Positions 17,178 to 23,559 of a stretch of 64,000 nt of DNA are shown one piece after another (position 1 is the first letter of the stretch; each line of letters starts with the position of its first letter). A program made the translations under genes and the position numbers. The stretch is from Gemmatimonadaceae bacterium (lineage in GTDB: Bacteria; Gemmatimonadota; Gemmatimonadetes; Gemmatimonadales; Gemmatimonadaceae): positions 1 through 64,000 of the forward strand of contig DATLUQ010000046.1 in the NCBI GenBank assembly GCA_035533015.1, read 5' to 3'. The notes beneath the pieces are model-generated. The model searched no databases. It was not told the DNA's origin and saw only the letters and a program-made list of their open reading frames with translations.

Positions 17178-18077
17178 CTAGCCGGCGCTCCCCGGCGGGA
17201 CCAGCACCCGCAGCACTCCCGGCCGGCTCTCCACGCGAACGTGGGTAGACGTGGCGCGGCGAAGTTCGCCGTCGGCCTCGTAGAGCGGCGGCGCCGCGAA
17301 CCGCAGCGAGAAGGTGGCCGCGCGCCTCGCCGATACGCGCGGATGACTCAGATGTGTGCCCCTGGCGGCGCGGGCGAGCAGCGCGGGCCGGCCCAACGCC
17401 CCGACGTCGGCGATCGCTATCGCGTCGAGCATCCCGTCGTCGATGCGCGCCCCGGGCGCCACGTGAAACATGCCCCCGAAGTGCGCCCCGTTGGCGAACG
17501 CGAGCAGCAGGTACCTCGACGGGTAGGGCGCATCGTCGATGGCCACCTCGAGGCCGCGGTAGGCGAACAGCTCCTGCAGCGCCGCCACCGCGTATAAGGC
17601 AGCGCCGGCCAGCCAGCGCGTGCGTTGGGTGCGCGCGAGCACCGCGACGTCGAAGGCGAATCCGGCGACGTTGAGAAACAATTCGCCGTCCACCGTCGCC
17701 ATGTCGACGCGACGCTCCTCGGCGTCGCCAGCCACGAGACGCGCCATCGCCTCGATGGCGCCCGACGGCTCGGGAAGATTCTTCACGAAGTCGTTGCCGG
17801 TGCCCGCGGAGATGAGCGCCAGCCGCGCCGGGCATCCATGACGCACCAACTCGGCGGCCGCCTTGCTCCACGTGCCGTCGCCGCCCAACACGGCGATCGT
17901 GTCGCATCCATCATCCAGCGCCGCCCGTACCTGCCGTACCTCGTCACCCGGCGCCACGGTGGGCCGGATGTCGGTGATCCCCCGGGCGGCGAACGCCTGG
18001 GCCACGTGCGGCAGGAGGCGCGCGCCGCGGCCCCGGCCGGCAACCGGATTCACAATGAGGCAGGCGCGCCGTGTCAC
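17178..18077 (-). CDS. Diacylglycerol/lipid kinase family protein
   Basis: A 299-residue kinase of the DagK/YegS/BmrU type that phosphorylates a lipid hydroxyl, probably diacylglycerol or a related lipid, at the membrane surface. The catalytic domain is shown by LIVNPVAGRGRGARLLP, the nucleotide loop AVLGGDGTWSKAAAEL (GGDGT) and ISAGTGNDFVKNL. The C-terminal half has ARIDDGMLDAIAI and LYEADGELRRA, as in the family. The start is GTG. It follows glycerate kinase by 39 bp on the same strand and may share its transcript. Confidence 0.88.
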   Translation of the reverse strand: MTRRACLIVNPVAGRGRGARLLPHVAQAFAARGITDIRPTVAPGDEVRQVRAALDDGCDTIAVLGGDGTWSKAAAELVRHGCPARLALISAGTGNDFVKNLPEPSGAIEAMARLVAGDAEERRVDMATVDGELFLNVAGFAFDVAVLARTQRTRWLAGAALYAVAALQELFAYRGLEVAIDDAPYPSRYLLLAFANGAHFGGMFHVAPGARIDDGMLDAIAIADVGALGRPALLARAARGTHLSHPRVSARRAATFSLRFAAPPLYEADGELRRATSTHVRVESRPGVLRVLVPPGSAG

Positions 18078-18116
18078 GCGTGTGGAGTGCGGGGAGCGAG
18101 GCGCCGGCGTGCGACG

Positions 18117-19499
18117 TTACGCGCCTGCGGCAATCGAACCGATCACGACGTCGGCCACGTTCGTGCCGGTGGGGCCGGTGTGCAAGAGGGCGCCGGCCAC
18201 GGCCAGCGCCGCGTACGATTCGTGGGCGGCGAGCGCGGCGCCGGGATCGCGCCCCGCATCGCGAATCGCATCCCAGGTGTGCGCGTCCACCCAGGCGCCC
18301 GCTGCGTCGGTGGGGCCGTCGCGGCCGTCGGTGCCCGCGGCGAGCAGCGTGATGCCGCGCGCGGCCTCCCCGGCCTCGCCGAGCACCCGCGCAGCGGAGA
18401 GCGCCAGTTCCTGGCAGCGCCCACCCTGGGGTTGCGGCTCCGGCGGCATGGCCCCCGACTCACTCCGCGCCCGCAATCCGGGGGTCAGCGAGGGGTGCGG
18501 AATGGAGACCGTCGTCTCCCCACCGCAGATGAGTACCGAGGCGCGCCCACCCGCCTGCGCGCGCCGCTCGATGAGGGCCCGCGCCATCGCCGCGCCCGCG
18601 TCGGCAGCGTTGCCAGCGAGCGTCGCATCCGCCACGGTGACCTGGGCGATTCCCAACTCGACGGCTTTGGCCCGGGCCGCTTCCAGCGCCGAGCGGTTGT
18701 TCACGATCACGCGTGCCGTCACGTGCGCAAACGCGGGGTGCGTCTGCTTGGGCGTTTCGGGGATGACGCCGCGCTGCGTTCCCGCGAGATGCTCGCGAAA
18801 TGACGGTGCCAGGCGCTGCAACAGCTTTGCGTGCCGCAAGATCTCGAGCACGTCCGCTACGGTATACGGGTCCGCCACGCACGGACCGGAGCCGATGGAC
18901 GAGATGTCGTCCCCGATGACGTCGGAAATGGCCAGGCAGTGGATCGTGGCCGGCGCCAGCGCCAGCGCCAGGCGGCCACTGCCCCAGCGTGAGAACCGCT
19001 TGCGCACGGCGTTCATCTGGCGGACGTCGAGCCCGCTGTTGAGCACCAGTTCGTACAGGTGAGCGAAATCGGCCTCGCTCATGCCGCTCAGCGGAGCGCC
19101 GATGAGACTCGACGCGCCTCCCGAAATGAGCACGAGGGCGATATCGTTGCTCTTCATTCCGGCGGCGGTCTCGGCCAGGCGTGCTGCCGCGGCGAACGAG
19201 TGCCGGCCCGGCACCGGGTGGTCGCCGCGCACCGAAGCCATGGTGGCCGCCGGTGACGGGGCGTCCTCGGGGGCCACCACGAGGCCGCCCGCAATGGCGA
19301 TCAGCGATCGCTGCAGCGTCGCGGTGGCGGCGCTCGCCATGGCGTGCGCCGCCTTGCCCACCGCGAACAGCCACAGCCGCTGGTGGCGGGCGGTGGAGAG
19401 CTTCTCGACGGCTTGCGCCGTGGCGGCGCCGGGATCGGCGCCCACCACGGCGGCACGGAACAGGGCTTCAACCAACTCCGAGGAGGTCTGCGCGGTCAC
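18117..19499 (-). CDS. Glycerate 2-kinase (MOFRL/DUF4147 family)
   Basis: A 460-residue GTG-started enzyme that phosphorylates D-glycerate to 2-phosphoglycerate. Signatures are KAAHAMASAA, ALVLISGGASSLIGAPLSG, FSRWGSGRLALALAPATIHC, ISDVIGDDISSIGSGPCVAD and ICGGETTVSI, then the C-terminal MOFRL domain with LLAAGTDGRDGPTDAAGAWV. It feeds glycerate (from glyoxylate, serine or sugar acids) into lower glycolysis. It lies 51 bp downstream of the TGA-containing peroxiredoxin and just before the lipid kinase on the minus strand. Confidence 0.92.
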   Translation of the reverse strand: MTAQTSSELVEALFRAAVVGADPGAATAQAVEKLSTARHQRLWLFAVGKAAHAMASAATATLQRSLIAIAGGLVVAPEDAPSPAATMASVRGDHPVPGRHSFAAAARLAETAAGMKSNDIALVLISGGASSLIGAPLSGMSEADFAHLYELVLNSGLDVRQMNAVRKRFSRWGSGRLALALAPATIHCLAISDVIGDDISSIGSGPCVADPYTVADVLEILRHAKLLQRLAPSFREHLAGTQRGVIPETPKQTHPAFAHVTARVIVNNRSALEAARAKAVELGIAQVTVADATLAGNAADAGAAMARALIERRAQAGGRASVLICGGETTVSIPHPSLTPGLRARSESGAMPPEPQPQGGRCQELALSAARVLGEAGEAARGITLLAAGTDGRDGPTDAAGAWVDAHTWDAIRDAGRDPGAALAAHESYAALAVAGALLHTGPTGTNVADVVIGSIAAGA

Positions 19500-19550
19500 C
19501 GCTCGACCCGTGCTGCCGCCACGCGGTTCCTGCGGCGCGACACTGCGCCC

Positions 19551-20150
19551 CTATGGCGCGCCAGATCCACCCACCCCCGCCGTGCTGTCCACCGCGGCCT
19601 GCATGTCCTTGTATGCGGCGGCCGAGAGCACGTTGAACCCGGTGCCCACCACGCGGTACGTGATGCGGCCGTCGGGCCCGACCACGAACAGGAATCGCTT
19701 GTCGTAGTTCTTGCCGGTCTGAGCGCCGTATAGCTTGCCCACCGCTTCGCCCGAGTCACTGCCGAACAGCATCGGGAAGTCGGCGTCGCGGGCCCATGAA
19801 GAGAGCGTGGTGTCGGCATCGGTGCTGATGGCGAGCACGACCACTTTCTTCCCAGCGTTGAAGAGCGTGGCGTACTGATCACGGTACGCCTCCATTTGGA
19901 CCGTTCAACCTTTGGTTCGCGCCCGGATGAAGAAGGCGAGCACCACGGTCTTGCCGCGGAAGTCCGCGAGATGGATCGGGTCTTTCAGTACGCCATACCG
20001 GGTGGCGCCGGGGATCGTGAAGTCCGGGGCCATCTCTCCTACTTGTGGTGCGGCAGTTGCTGCGGCGGGCGCCTGCTGTGCGTGGGCGGCGGAGGCCGCA
20101 ACGACGAGTCCCACGGCGAGTCCCAACGTACGGACAGATGTTCGGGTCAC
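19551..20150 (-). CDS. Exported peroxiredoxin, predicted selenoprotein (TGA at the peroxidatic position)
   Basis: A thioredoxin-fold peroxidase of the AhpC/TSA (BCP/PrxQ-like) family, 199 residues if TGA is read as selenocysteine. The GTG at 20150 follows GAGGGG and opens a signal peptide (GLAVGLVVAASAAHAQ). Next come GEMAPDFTIPGATRYG and FRGKTVVLAFFIRARTKG. Codon 82 is TGA exactly where the family's peroxidatic Cys lies (TxxC context TKG-U-TVQ). The same frame then continues without shift: MEAYRDQYATLF, VVVLAISTDADTTLSSWARD and FLFVVGPDGRITYRVVG. A 7-bp stem-loop follows the TGA. No second (resolving) Cys is seen. The invariant Pro seven residues before is Ile. The alternative is a nonsense mutation or sequencing error. 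Confidence 0.78.
19869..19890 (-). promoter_or_regulatory. Predicted bacterial SECIS stem-loop downstream of the in-frame TGA
   Basis: In the mRNA, GGCGUAC and GUACGCC form a perfect 7-bp stem around the 8-base loop CGUGAUCA. The loop G residues lie 23 and 25 nt after the last base of UGA, within the 16-37 nt window known for bacterial SECIS elements read by SelB. The hairpin is inside the coding sequence, as is normal in bacteria. Confidence 0.65.
19905..19907 (-). other. In-frame TGA, predicted selenocysteine codon (residue 82)
   Basis: The minus strand reads AAA GGT TGA ACG GTC CAA. The flanking residues Thr-Lys-Gly and Thr-Val-Gln match the surroundings of the catalytic Cys in BCP-type peroxiredoxins (TPGCTVQ-like). 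The frame is open for 81 codons before and 117 after. Confidence 0.72.
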
Positions 20151-20225
20151 GGGTCCCCTCGGGTGCTGGTTCAGTGCGGGAAATTGGGGTTCCGCCCCGC
20201 ATAACGCAATGCAGACCGGCGAGTT

Positions 20226-20255
20226 GGGGACCCAATTGCCGCTGGTTTGGTCCCC
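20226..20255. other. Inverted repeat GGGGACC...GGTCCCC in the divergent gap
   Basis: Perfect 7-bp arms with a 16-base spacer lie in the 193-bp gap between the peroxiredoxin (leftward) and an unknown gene (rightward). It could be an operator for either. I see no clear promoter boxes here. Confidence 0.25.
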
Positions 20256-20343
20256 GCGGGACGCCGACCGCGAAACCTTTGTGCCGCACGGCAGGTCTTT
20301 CCTAATGGTCAACAGGTCGACGATGACCGCGAGGATCACACCG

Positions 20344-20739
20344 ATGAGCTCACTGGAAACCGAAATCAATCAGGTGCTCGTGACGCTGGTGCACGACGTC
20401 GAAGCGGCGGTGCATGCGATGTATCGCGGCGAGGTGCGCCAGAACACGGCGAAGCTCAAGACGGACGCGCAGCGCACGACGGCGCGCGATGCCGTGCTGG
20501 CTCTCGTCGGGATCGGCCGGCCCGTCAGCGACACGGACCCTGGCTCCGTGCGCGCATCGGTGCTCTCGCCCGAGGAGGTGGCGGCCCTCACTCGCTGCAT
20601 CACCGGCTGGCTGCCCATGGGCGACCCCCGCGCCGCCACGCCGAACTCGCGGTGCATTCCCGCGGCGCGCGAGATCGCGCCCACATGGGGAGAGCGCGAG
20701 AAAGCGCGGTTGGCGATCCGTCGGGCCGAGACCGGCTGA
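20344..20739 (+). CDS. Hypothetical protein
   Basis: A 131-residue protein starting MSSLETEINQVLVTLVHDVE, preceded by GAGGA 9 nt before the ATG. The first 60 residues look helical and charged, with no signal peptide. The middle holds SVLSPEEVAALTRCITGWLP, and the C-terminus is Arg/Glu-rich (WGEREKARLAIRRAET). Codon usage and the ribosome site support a real gene. I do not recognise a family. It is divergent from the selenoprotein candidate and convergent with aconitase, separated from it by a strong hairpin. Confidence 0.55.
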   Translation: MSSLETEINQVLVTLVHDVEAAVHAMYRGEVRQNTAKLKTDAQRTTARDAVLALVGIGRPVSDTDPGSVRASVLSPEEVAALTRCITGWLPMGDPRAATPNSRCIPAAREIAPTWGEREKARLAIRRAETG

Positions 20740-20767
20740 GCGCCGGTGCTCGACCCGCCTAGAGGAA

Positions 20768-20800
20768 GCGGGCGGGGGGGCAGCCCGGCCCCCCGCCCGC
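20768..20800. terminator. Bidirectional hairpin between converging genes
   Basis: GCGGGCGGGGGG (20768-20779) and CCCCCCGCCCGC (20789-20800) make a perfect 12-bp all-GC stem with a 9-base loop. It sits midway in the 84-bp gap between the hypothetical gene and the aconitase stop. It likely ends transcription from both sides, though neither side has a T-run. Confidence 0.65.
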
Positions 20801-20823
20801 CCCGGTTCCGCCGGTCGAGCGCG

Positions 20824-23559
20824 CTACTTGCGGCCGACGAGTGACCGGAGCACGTAGGGCAGAATGCCGCCGTGCCGGTAGTAGTGCATCTCCTCGGGTG
20901 TGTCGATGCGCACCAGCACCGTGAACTCCTTGATCATGCCGTCGCTGGCGGTGGCGCGCACGGTCAGCCCCGCCTTGGGCGAGAGCGAGTCGCCGAGCCC
21001 CACGATCTCGTACGTCTCAAAGCCGGTGAGCCCCAGCGACTGGCGGCCCTGCCCACCCGTGAACTCCAGCGGCAGTACACCCATTCCCACCAGGTTGGAC
21101 CGGTGGATGCGCTCGAACGATTCGGCGATCACGGCCTTCACGCCGAGCAGGATCGTGCCTTTGGCCGCCCAGTCGCGCGACGACCCGGTGCCGTACTCCT
21201 TGCCGGCCACGATCACCAGTGGCGTGCCCGCCTTCTGGTACGCCATCGCCGCATCGTAGATGTACGTGGGCTGGGCGCCGGGGGCGGTGGCCGTCCACCC
21301 GCCTTCGGTGCCCGGGGCGAGTTCGTTGCGCAGACGGATGTTGCCGAAGGTACCGCGCATCATCACCTCGTGATTGCCACGGCGCGATCCGTACGAGTTG
21401 AAATCCTTGCGGTCCACGCCGTGCGCCACCAGCCACTGACCGGCGGGACTCTTGAGCGGGATGCTTCCGGCCGGCGAGATGTGGTCCGTGGTGATCGAAT
21501 CGCCGAGCATCGCCAGCACGCGGGCGCCGGCGATCGGGCGCACGCCCGGGGGCGTCATCGTCATGCCGTCGAAATACGGCGGGTTCTTCACGTACGTGGA
21601 ATCGTTCTGCCACGCGTACGTCTCGCCGTGCGGAACGTCGAGCTGCTGCCACTCCGCGTCGCCCTTGAACACGTCGGCGTACTCGGCACTGAAGAAATCA
21701 CGCTTCACGCTGCGCAGGATCTCGTCCTGCACGTCCTTGGCGCTCGGCCAGATGTCCTTGAGGTACACCGGTCCGTGGGTGCCCTCGCCCAGCGGTTCGG
21801 TGGTAAGGTCGACGTCCATGCGACCGGCCAGCGCGTAGGCCACGACCAGCGGGGGCGACGCCAGATAGTTGAACCGCGTCAGCGGGTTCACGCGCCCCTC
21901 GAAGTTGCGGTTGCCGCTCAACACCGACGCCACGATGAGTCTCTTCTGTTCGATGGCGGCGGCGATCGATTCAGGGAGCGGCCCCGAATTCCCGATGCAC
22001 GTGGTGCAGCCGTACCCTACGAGATTGAACCCCAGCGCGTCGAGATACTCCGTGAGCCCGGCCTGCTTGTAATAGTCGGTCACCACCTTGGAGCCCGGGG
22101 CCAGTGACGTCTTCACCCAGGGCTTGGACTTGAGCCCCTTCTTCACCGCGTTCCGCGCCAACATGCCGGCGGCGATCATCACGCTCGGATTCGACGTGTT
22201 GGTGCAGCTCGTGATGGCGGCGATCACCACCGCGCCGTGACGGAGCGTGAAGGTCTGCCCGTTGTGCGCGCATTCCACCGCGTTGTGAGTCTGCGCCCCG
22301 CCTTCTCCGTCCATCCGGGCCTTGGCGCCCTGCGTGTCGCCGTTGCCGGCCGACACCGCGAGGCGCTCCGCTTCCCCCTTGTACGCGTCGGCGTACATTG
22401 CCTTGGCTCTGGCCAGCGGCACTCGGTCCTGCGGACGCTTGGGGCCGGCCAGGCTCGGCTCGACCGTGGCGAGATCCAGCTCCAACGTGTCGGTGAATAC
22501 CGGGTCGGGCGTGTCGTCGGTGCGGAAGAGCCCCTGCGCCTTGGTGTATGCCTCCACCAGCTCGACGTGGTGCTCGGGCCGGCCGGTGAGCCGCAGGTAC
22601 TTGAGTGTTTCGGCATCGCACGGGAAGAAACCCATCGTCGCGCCGTATTCGGGCGACATGTTGGCGATCGTGGCGCGGTCGGCGAGCGACAACGACGACA
22701 GGCCGGCACCGTAGAACTCCACGAACTTGCCCACGACCTTCTTTTTGCGGAGCATCTCGGTGCAGGTGAGCACGAGATCGGTGGCCGTGGTGCCCGGCGG
22801 CAGCTTGCCGTGCAGCTTGAACCCGACCACCTCCGGAATGAGCATCGTCACCGGCTGGCCGAGCATCGCCGCTTCGGCTTCGATGCCGCCCACGCCCCAA
22901 CCCAGCACCCCGAGGCCATTGATCATGGTCGTGTGGGAGTCGGTTCCGACGAGCGAATCCGGGTAGGCCTCACCCGTCTCGCTGTTCACGAACACCGTCT
23001 TGCCCAGGTACTCCAGGTTCACCTGGTGGCAGATGCCGGTGCCCGGCGGCACGACGCGAAAGTTCTTGAACGCATCCTGCCCCCAGCGCAGGAACACGTA
23101 GCGCTCCGTGTTGCGTTCGAACTCCCGCTCGGTGTTGAGCAGGAACGCCGCCGCGCTGCCGTATTCGTCCACCTGTACGGAGTGGTCGATCACGAGATCC
23201 ACCGGTTGCAGCGGATTGATCTTCTGCGGATTGCCGCCAAGTTTGGCGATTGCATCGCGCATTGCCGCCAGGTCGACCACCGCCGGCACGCCCGTGAAGT
23301 CCTGGAGGAGCACGCGGGACGTGCGGAACGCGATTTCCTTCTCGACCTTCGCCTTCACGTCCCAGCGGATCATCGCCTCGATGTCTGCCCGCCGCACGAA
23401 GGCATCGTCTTCGTTTCGCAGCAGATTCTCGAGCAGGATCTTGAGACTGAACGGGAGCGTGGCGGTGGTACCGCCCAGGTCACCCAGCCGGTAGACAGTG
23501 TACGTCTTGCCGTCGACGGCGAGCGCCGTGCGGCTGCCAAAGGAGTTCTTGCTTGTCAT
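20824..23559 (-). CDS. acnA: Aconitate hydratase A
   Basis: A 911-residue TCA-cycle enzyme interconverting citrate and isocitrate through cis-aconitate, with a [4Fe-4S] cluster. The three cluster cysteines are in [13 protein letters not shown] and [70 protein letters not shown] and [17 protein letters not shown] are all intact AcnA signatures. Length is normal for the bacterial AcnA/IRP type. A GAGG ribosome site precedes the ATG. Monocistronic, followed by the hairpin at 20768. It has the regions needed for mRNA binding in the apo-form, but no such role can be inferred here. Confidence 0.97.

Follow-up and report, generated by a model that had tools for sequence, protein, structure and literature searches.

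The window, by which we mean the whole 64,000-nt stretch of DNA that was analysed, carries on its minus strand (19551-20150) a gene that we annotate, from its frame, profile match and predicted fold, as encoding a selenoprotein, a predicted exported 1-Sec peroxiredoxin of the AhpC/TSA family. The gene has 199 codons plus a stop, beginning with a GTG at 20150 and ending at 19553-19551, and direct reading of the sequence places a probable ribosome-binding site, GAGGGGACCC, before the GTG (20151-20160, minus strand). A single in-frame TGA at codon 82 (19905-19907, minus strand) is the only interruption; there is no other stop and no frameshift. The preliminary description had put this TGA at the peroxidatic Cys position (TKG-TGA-TVQ), and both the frame and the homologue alignment place it there; the surrounding sequence reads VVLAFFIRARTKG-U-TVQMEAYRDQY, with the motif TKG-U-TVQ. 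A match to PF00578 (AhpC-TSA) runs straight across the TGA (residues 37-165, E 2.3e-22), scoring 79.7 bits against a family cut-off of 26. Residues 1-24 (20079-20150, minus strand) form a putative signal peptide, VTRTSVRTLGLAVGLVVAASAAHA, followed by QQ, with the cleavage site placed by eye; the N-terminus, judged by hydrophobicity with a simple rule rather than with SignalP, is also signal-like in 108/113 TGA-containing and 38/38 Cys-containing homologues, in keeping with the earlier reading of a signal peptide.

The order aconitase - Sec peroxiredoxin - glycerate kinase (window 17178-23559) is partly kept at 14-16 of 80 loci. Upstream of the peroxiredoxin gene lies a small divergent ORF (window 20345-20739, plus strand; MSSLETEINQVLVTLVHDVEAAVHAMYRGEVRQ...), apparent relatives of which adjoin 8 of 80 loci.

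Can the organism decode UGA as selenocysteine? The source genome (3.03 Mb in 66 contigs, 95% complete) has SelA on contig C47 (536 bits) and, on contig C58, SelD (377 bits) and SelB (320 bits with both parts, above the cut-off); a tRNA-Sec with anticodon TCA (74 bits) adjoins selD. The preliminary description had named the absence of all sel genes as grounds for giving up a selenoprotein; since selA, selB, selD and tRNA-Sec are all found, that test fails to refute it. The same genome encodes, outside the window, a formate dehydrogenase alpha homologue (L285, G000:C28:100426-102294) with one in-frame TGA in the context ...SCNRTUHAPSV..., the usual FdhA Sec site; this is a probable second selenoprotein.

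Homologues were sought in the same order, where 197 of 201 genomes had a match, and 140 loci holding 151 copies were analysed. An alignment of homologues had been proposed as a check, and it shows a column that exchanges TGA with Cys only, 113 copies against 38: the codon is TGA in 113, TGC in 36, TGT in two and nothing else in any. This codon is also TGA in the two closest relatives (72-73% identity). A TAA inside the G156, G198 and G062 homologues was considered as the Sec-site codon and rejected, as it lies elsewhere in the gene and the site itself is TGC. Sampling of the class beyond this order gave 27 copies, 25 of them with TGA. The named homologue contigs are almost all from Gemmatimonadota or Gemmatimonadaceae metagenome assemblies, and nearly all TGA genomes are metagenome assemblies; this Sec form is also found on two contigs labelled Acidobacteria and Terrabacteria, for which misbinning is a possibility.

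The distribution of the two codons follows that of the Sec-decoding genes. A selA gene is present in the genome of 105 of the 113 TGA copies, and the remaining eight genomes have a strong tRNA-Sec (seven genomes, >71 bits) or selB (G197), so that each TGA copy (113/113) is accompanied by at least one Sec-decoding gene. Conversely, 28 of the 38 Cys copies are in genomes without selA. As to the other ten, seven stand in tandem with a Sec copy, in genus g8 (L055, L056, L058, L064, L077, L078 and L079), two (G082, G038) are in genomes that hold a Sec copy at another locus, and for one, in the selA-bearing G066, no Sec copy is listed. Eleven Cys-only genomes were tested, and none had SelB above the cut-off or a tRNA-Sec match >51 bits.

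These data bear on two ways of dispensing with selenocysteine. The first is that the gene is dead, or that a sequencing error conceals a true TGC or TGT; a single base change does turn TGA into a Cys codon, and relatives with the Cys form exist. It is hard to reconcile, however, with a TGA at the same codon in more than 100 other genome assemblies, outside the order too, or with a frame free of any other stop or frameshift. Moreover, comparison with five relatives gives dN/dS values of 0.15-0.36 for the part after the TGA (0.10-0.21 for that before it), indicative of purifying selection downstream of the TGA, and we give this explanation almost no weight. The second is that UGA is a true stop, either between two distinct genes or for a regulated truncation, and that the ORF 19895-19551 starts anew. 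As the preliminary description anticipated for automatic annotation, the standard code does yield two ORFs (20369-19905 and 19895-19551), both of which appear in the ORF listing, and an ATG lies 10 nt past the TGA. But such a division would break the thioredoxin fold at the catalytic residue, the two halves are fused as one Cys protein in 38 homologues, and the presence of TGA tracks Sec-decoding genes, making two genes or a truncation very improbable.

A selenocysteine codon calls for a SECIS element, and a hairpin had been described just after the UGA, with loop G residues at +23 and +25. We find it exactly there: GGCGUAC-CGUGAUCA-GUACGCC, a 7-bp stem closing the 8-nt loop CGUGAUCA, occupies +15 to +36 after the UGA (19869-19890, minus strand), with the loop 21 nt past the UGA and a stem-loop energy of -10.3 kcal/mol. 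The published bSECIS model (PMC13188914) specifies a loop of 3-9 nt, a stem of 4-16 bp, a G in the first two loop positions, a distance of 16-37 nt from the UGA and an energy of at most -7.5 kcal/mol, and the window hairpin lies within all of these limits, its G being at loop position 2. The model is matched at the identical place in 108/113 TGA copies versus 4/38 Cys copies, and in 65/565 segments taken elsewhere in the TGA genes. Like the bSECIS elements of E. coli formate dehydrogenase mRNAs, the hairpin lies directly past the UGA with a small loop, a G at loop position 2 followed by U, and a spacing of 21 nt; unlike them it has its own, nearly invariant core, GCGUACCGUGAUCAGUACGC, and an Rfam scan of the 64,000-nt window gave no match, the hairpin included. 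Other families of the class share this core.

Is the hairpin selected as RNA? Stem pairs are formed in 99.2% of cases in 71 distinct TGA sequences (shuffled, 91.6%), and in the Cys copies pairing is at shuffle level (69.4% vs a shuffle mean of 68.0%). Pair 15-36, which joins two third codon positions, is GC in 34, CG in 17, UA in 15 and AU in one of the TGA sequences, with 33 double-changed rows; the covariation of 0.166 versus 0.033 shuffled (0/500 shuffles) depends on this one freely varying pair, the six others being almost constant in TGA copies. Synonymous sites in the stem and loop are frozen in TGA copies only: site 24 is U in 66 of 73 distinct TGA copies and C in 31 of 38 Cys copies, and site 27 is U in 70 of 73 and C in 29 of 38, respectively. 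This freezing relative to the Cys copies points the same way as the covariation of pair 15-36.

A full-length protein would also result if UGA were read by some means other than Sec insertion, that is by a near-cognate tRNA or a UGA=Trp code. Against this, Cys is the sole alternative in the column and neither Trp nor Arg occurs there, TGA copies occur only alongside Sec-decoding genes, and the hairpin is retained in TGA copies only; such read-through is scarcely credible. The sel genes, the Cys/TGA exchange, the SECIS fit and the TGA-restricted covariation all agree with the original suggestion of a probable selenoprotein, and on this comparative evidence the window gene is almost certainly a functional gene for a Sec-containing member of the peroxiredoxin family.

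The closest Cys homologue (L041, in G034) comes from a genome without sel genes. It keeps a remnant SECIS loop, CGUGAU, on a broken stem, and in the tree this protein, with Cys and Pro, is nested among Sec-containing, mostly non-Pro relatives. A recent Sec-to-Cys reversal is the likely origin of this copy.

In the Pxxx(T/S)xxC/U motif of peroxiredoxins the T/S and C/U positions are kept, as is the active-site Arg: the catalytic Thr79 of TxxU (19914-19916, minus strand) is Thr or Ser in 151/151 homologues, and Arg152 (19695-19697, minus strand), 70 residues past the Sec and presumed catalytic, is an invariant column that aligns with the BCP Arg. The motif Pro is replaced here by Ile75 (19926-19928, minus strand), and the alignment bears out the preliminary description on this substitution. 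It does so equally for the lack of a resolving Cys, none of the 151 homologues having a further Cys in the catalytic domain, which was scanned from 45 residues ahead of the site to the C-terminus; by its sequence the protein is a strict one-Sec, 1-Cys-type peroxiredoxin with neither a resolving Cys nor a resolving Sec. Two residues before the site, Lys or Arg is found in 99/113 Sec copies (TKGU/TRGU) and mostly Ser in Cys copies (TSGC); Lys/Arg at this position may tune the selenolate.

Loss of the motif Pro is not special to the window protein; in the alignment it varies within the Sec clade. The Pro is present in all Cys copies (38/38 within the order, 2/2 outside) but in only 33 of the 113 Sec copies of the order (absent in 80) and in 0/27 of a further Sec set, to which the contigs labelled Acidobacteria and Terrabacteria belong. 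Overall, Phe, Tyr, Ile, Val or Ser replaces it in 107/140 Sec forms, whereas it is kept in 40/40 Cys forms. On the tree, Sec and Cys change at least eight times and Pro and non-Pro seven times, but the association offers just two well-supported independent contrasts and is not significant; the link between Pro loss and Sec is therefore suggestive and not proven. Sec in place of Cys could conceivably have made the active-site Pro dispensable, with its return in a lineage that reverted to Cys, although we consider this somewhat less probable than its opposite.

To which peroxiredoxins is the protein related? An AlphaFold2 model (pLDDT 88.7) has a peroxiredoxin fold, and its nearest neighbours (Foldseek was also run) are Mycobacterium tuberculosis AhpE and BCP, with Z about 22; the match to AhpE has Z 22.6 and 1.8 Å over 150 residues. 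AhpE, a 1-Cys peroxiredoxin and together with BCP the best structural neighbour, likewise has one redox residue, but this is Cys rather than Sec, there is no signal peptide, and identity is about 27%. With the BCP/PrxQ thiol peroxidases (Sulfolobus Bcp1/Bcp4, E. coli Bcp) the protein shares fold and sequence family, and among solved structures its sequence matches an archaeal BCP best; those enzymes, however, have Cys and are not exported. The scores for the BCP equivalog NF006960 (54.6 bits, cut-off 140) and the PrxU equivalog NF040737 (51.1 bits, cut-off 270) fall far below their cut-offs. The label 'BCP/PrxQ-like' given in the preliminary description is accordingly only loosely right: it holds for fold and sequence family, but the protein is below the BCP and PrxU cut-offs and its fold is as near to AhpE.

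Sec peroxiredoxins (Prx, TxxU, COG1225/PF00578), such as Eubacterium acidaminophilum PrxU, are an established family (PMC13188914, PMC1088965). The window protein resembles them in its peroxiredoxin fold, in a peroxidatic Sec in TxxU and in a SECIS just past the UGA. Unlike PrxU it has a signal peptide, and its catalytic domain is free of any other Cys; its group has replaced the Pro of the PxxxTxxU motif in most members and is spread class-wide in Gemmatimonadota. No account of Gemmatimonadota selenoproteins was found among the titles and abstracts of a limited literature collection. TxxU Sec peroxiredoxins are already known; it is the exported, class-wide, resolver-less form that is new.

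What reaction might it catalyze? We infer the following course, from Sec insertion in the cell through export and peroxidase activity to the reductant. SelB with Sec-tRNA(UCA) would bind the hairpin 15-36 nt past the UGA and Sec would be inserted at residue 82, after which the signal peptide would export the protein. Outside the cytoplasm, Thr79 and Arg152 would activate the selenolate, which would reduce H2O2 or organic hydroperoxides and be converted to a selenenic acid. The protein has no second Cys or Sec, and therefore an outside thiol must resolve the selenenic acid; a small thiol, H2S or an exported thioredoxin-like protein would form a mixed selenylsulfide, from which a second thiol would release the enzyme. 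By analogy, the most likely mechanism is a peroxidase cycle of the 1-Cys type that runs on selenium outside the cytoplasm, with an external thiol as resolver. M. tuberculosis AhpE and Prx6-type enzymes rely on outside reductants and serve as models for such a cycle. H2S is proposed for Prx6-type enzymes (PMC12697902). Neighbours at 80 loci were examined for the reductant but gave no clue to it, showing synteny with glycerate kinase and aconitase and nothing more.

Alternatively, the Sec protein could be mainly a selenol:disulfide oxidoreductase or a redox sensor. It lacks a resolving residue, is predicted to be exported and has lost the motif Pro, and one genus has a tandem Cys paralog, all of which would suit such a role; yet T-x-x-U and the invariant peroxiredoxin Arg are retained, there is no UxxC motif, and the fold is nearest to the AhpE and BCP peroxidases. 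We therefore regard an oxidoreductase or sensor as unlikely, and peroxidase activity with an outside thiol as probable.

The gene adds a class-wide selenoprotein to the phylum Gemmatimonadota, and one that standard annotation would cut into two fragments. Some genomes (genus g3) have the Sec peroxiredoxin and selA with no formate dehydrogenase alpha match at the threshold used; the Sec peroxiredoxin may therefore be part of the reason that these genomes keep Sec decoding. Genomes with Sec, with Cys and with both in tandem, together with a reversal in which the hairpin is decaying, make the costs and benefits of Sec testable, and if Sec did make the motif Pro dispensable, this exported one-Sec peroxiredoxin would be a natural experiment on the role of that residue. 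Selenium would, moreover, serve exported peroxide defence in these mostly uncultured bacteria.
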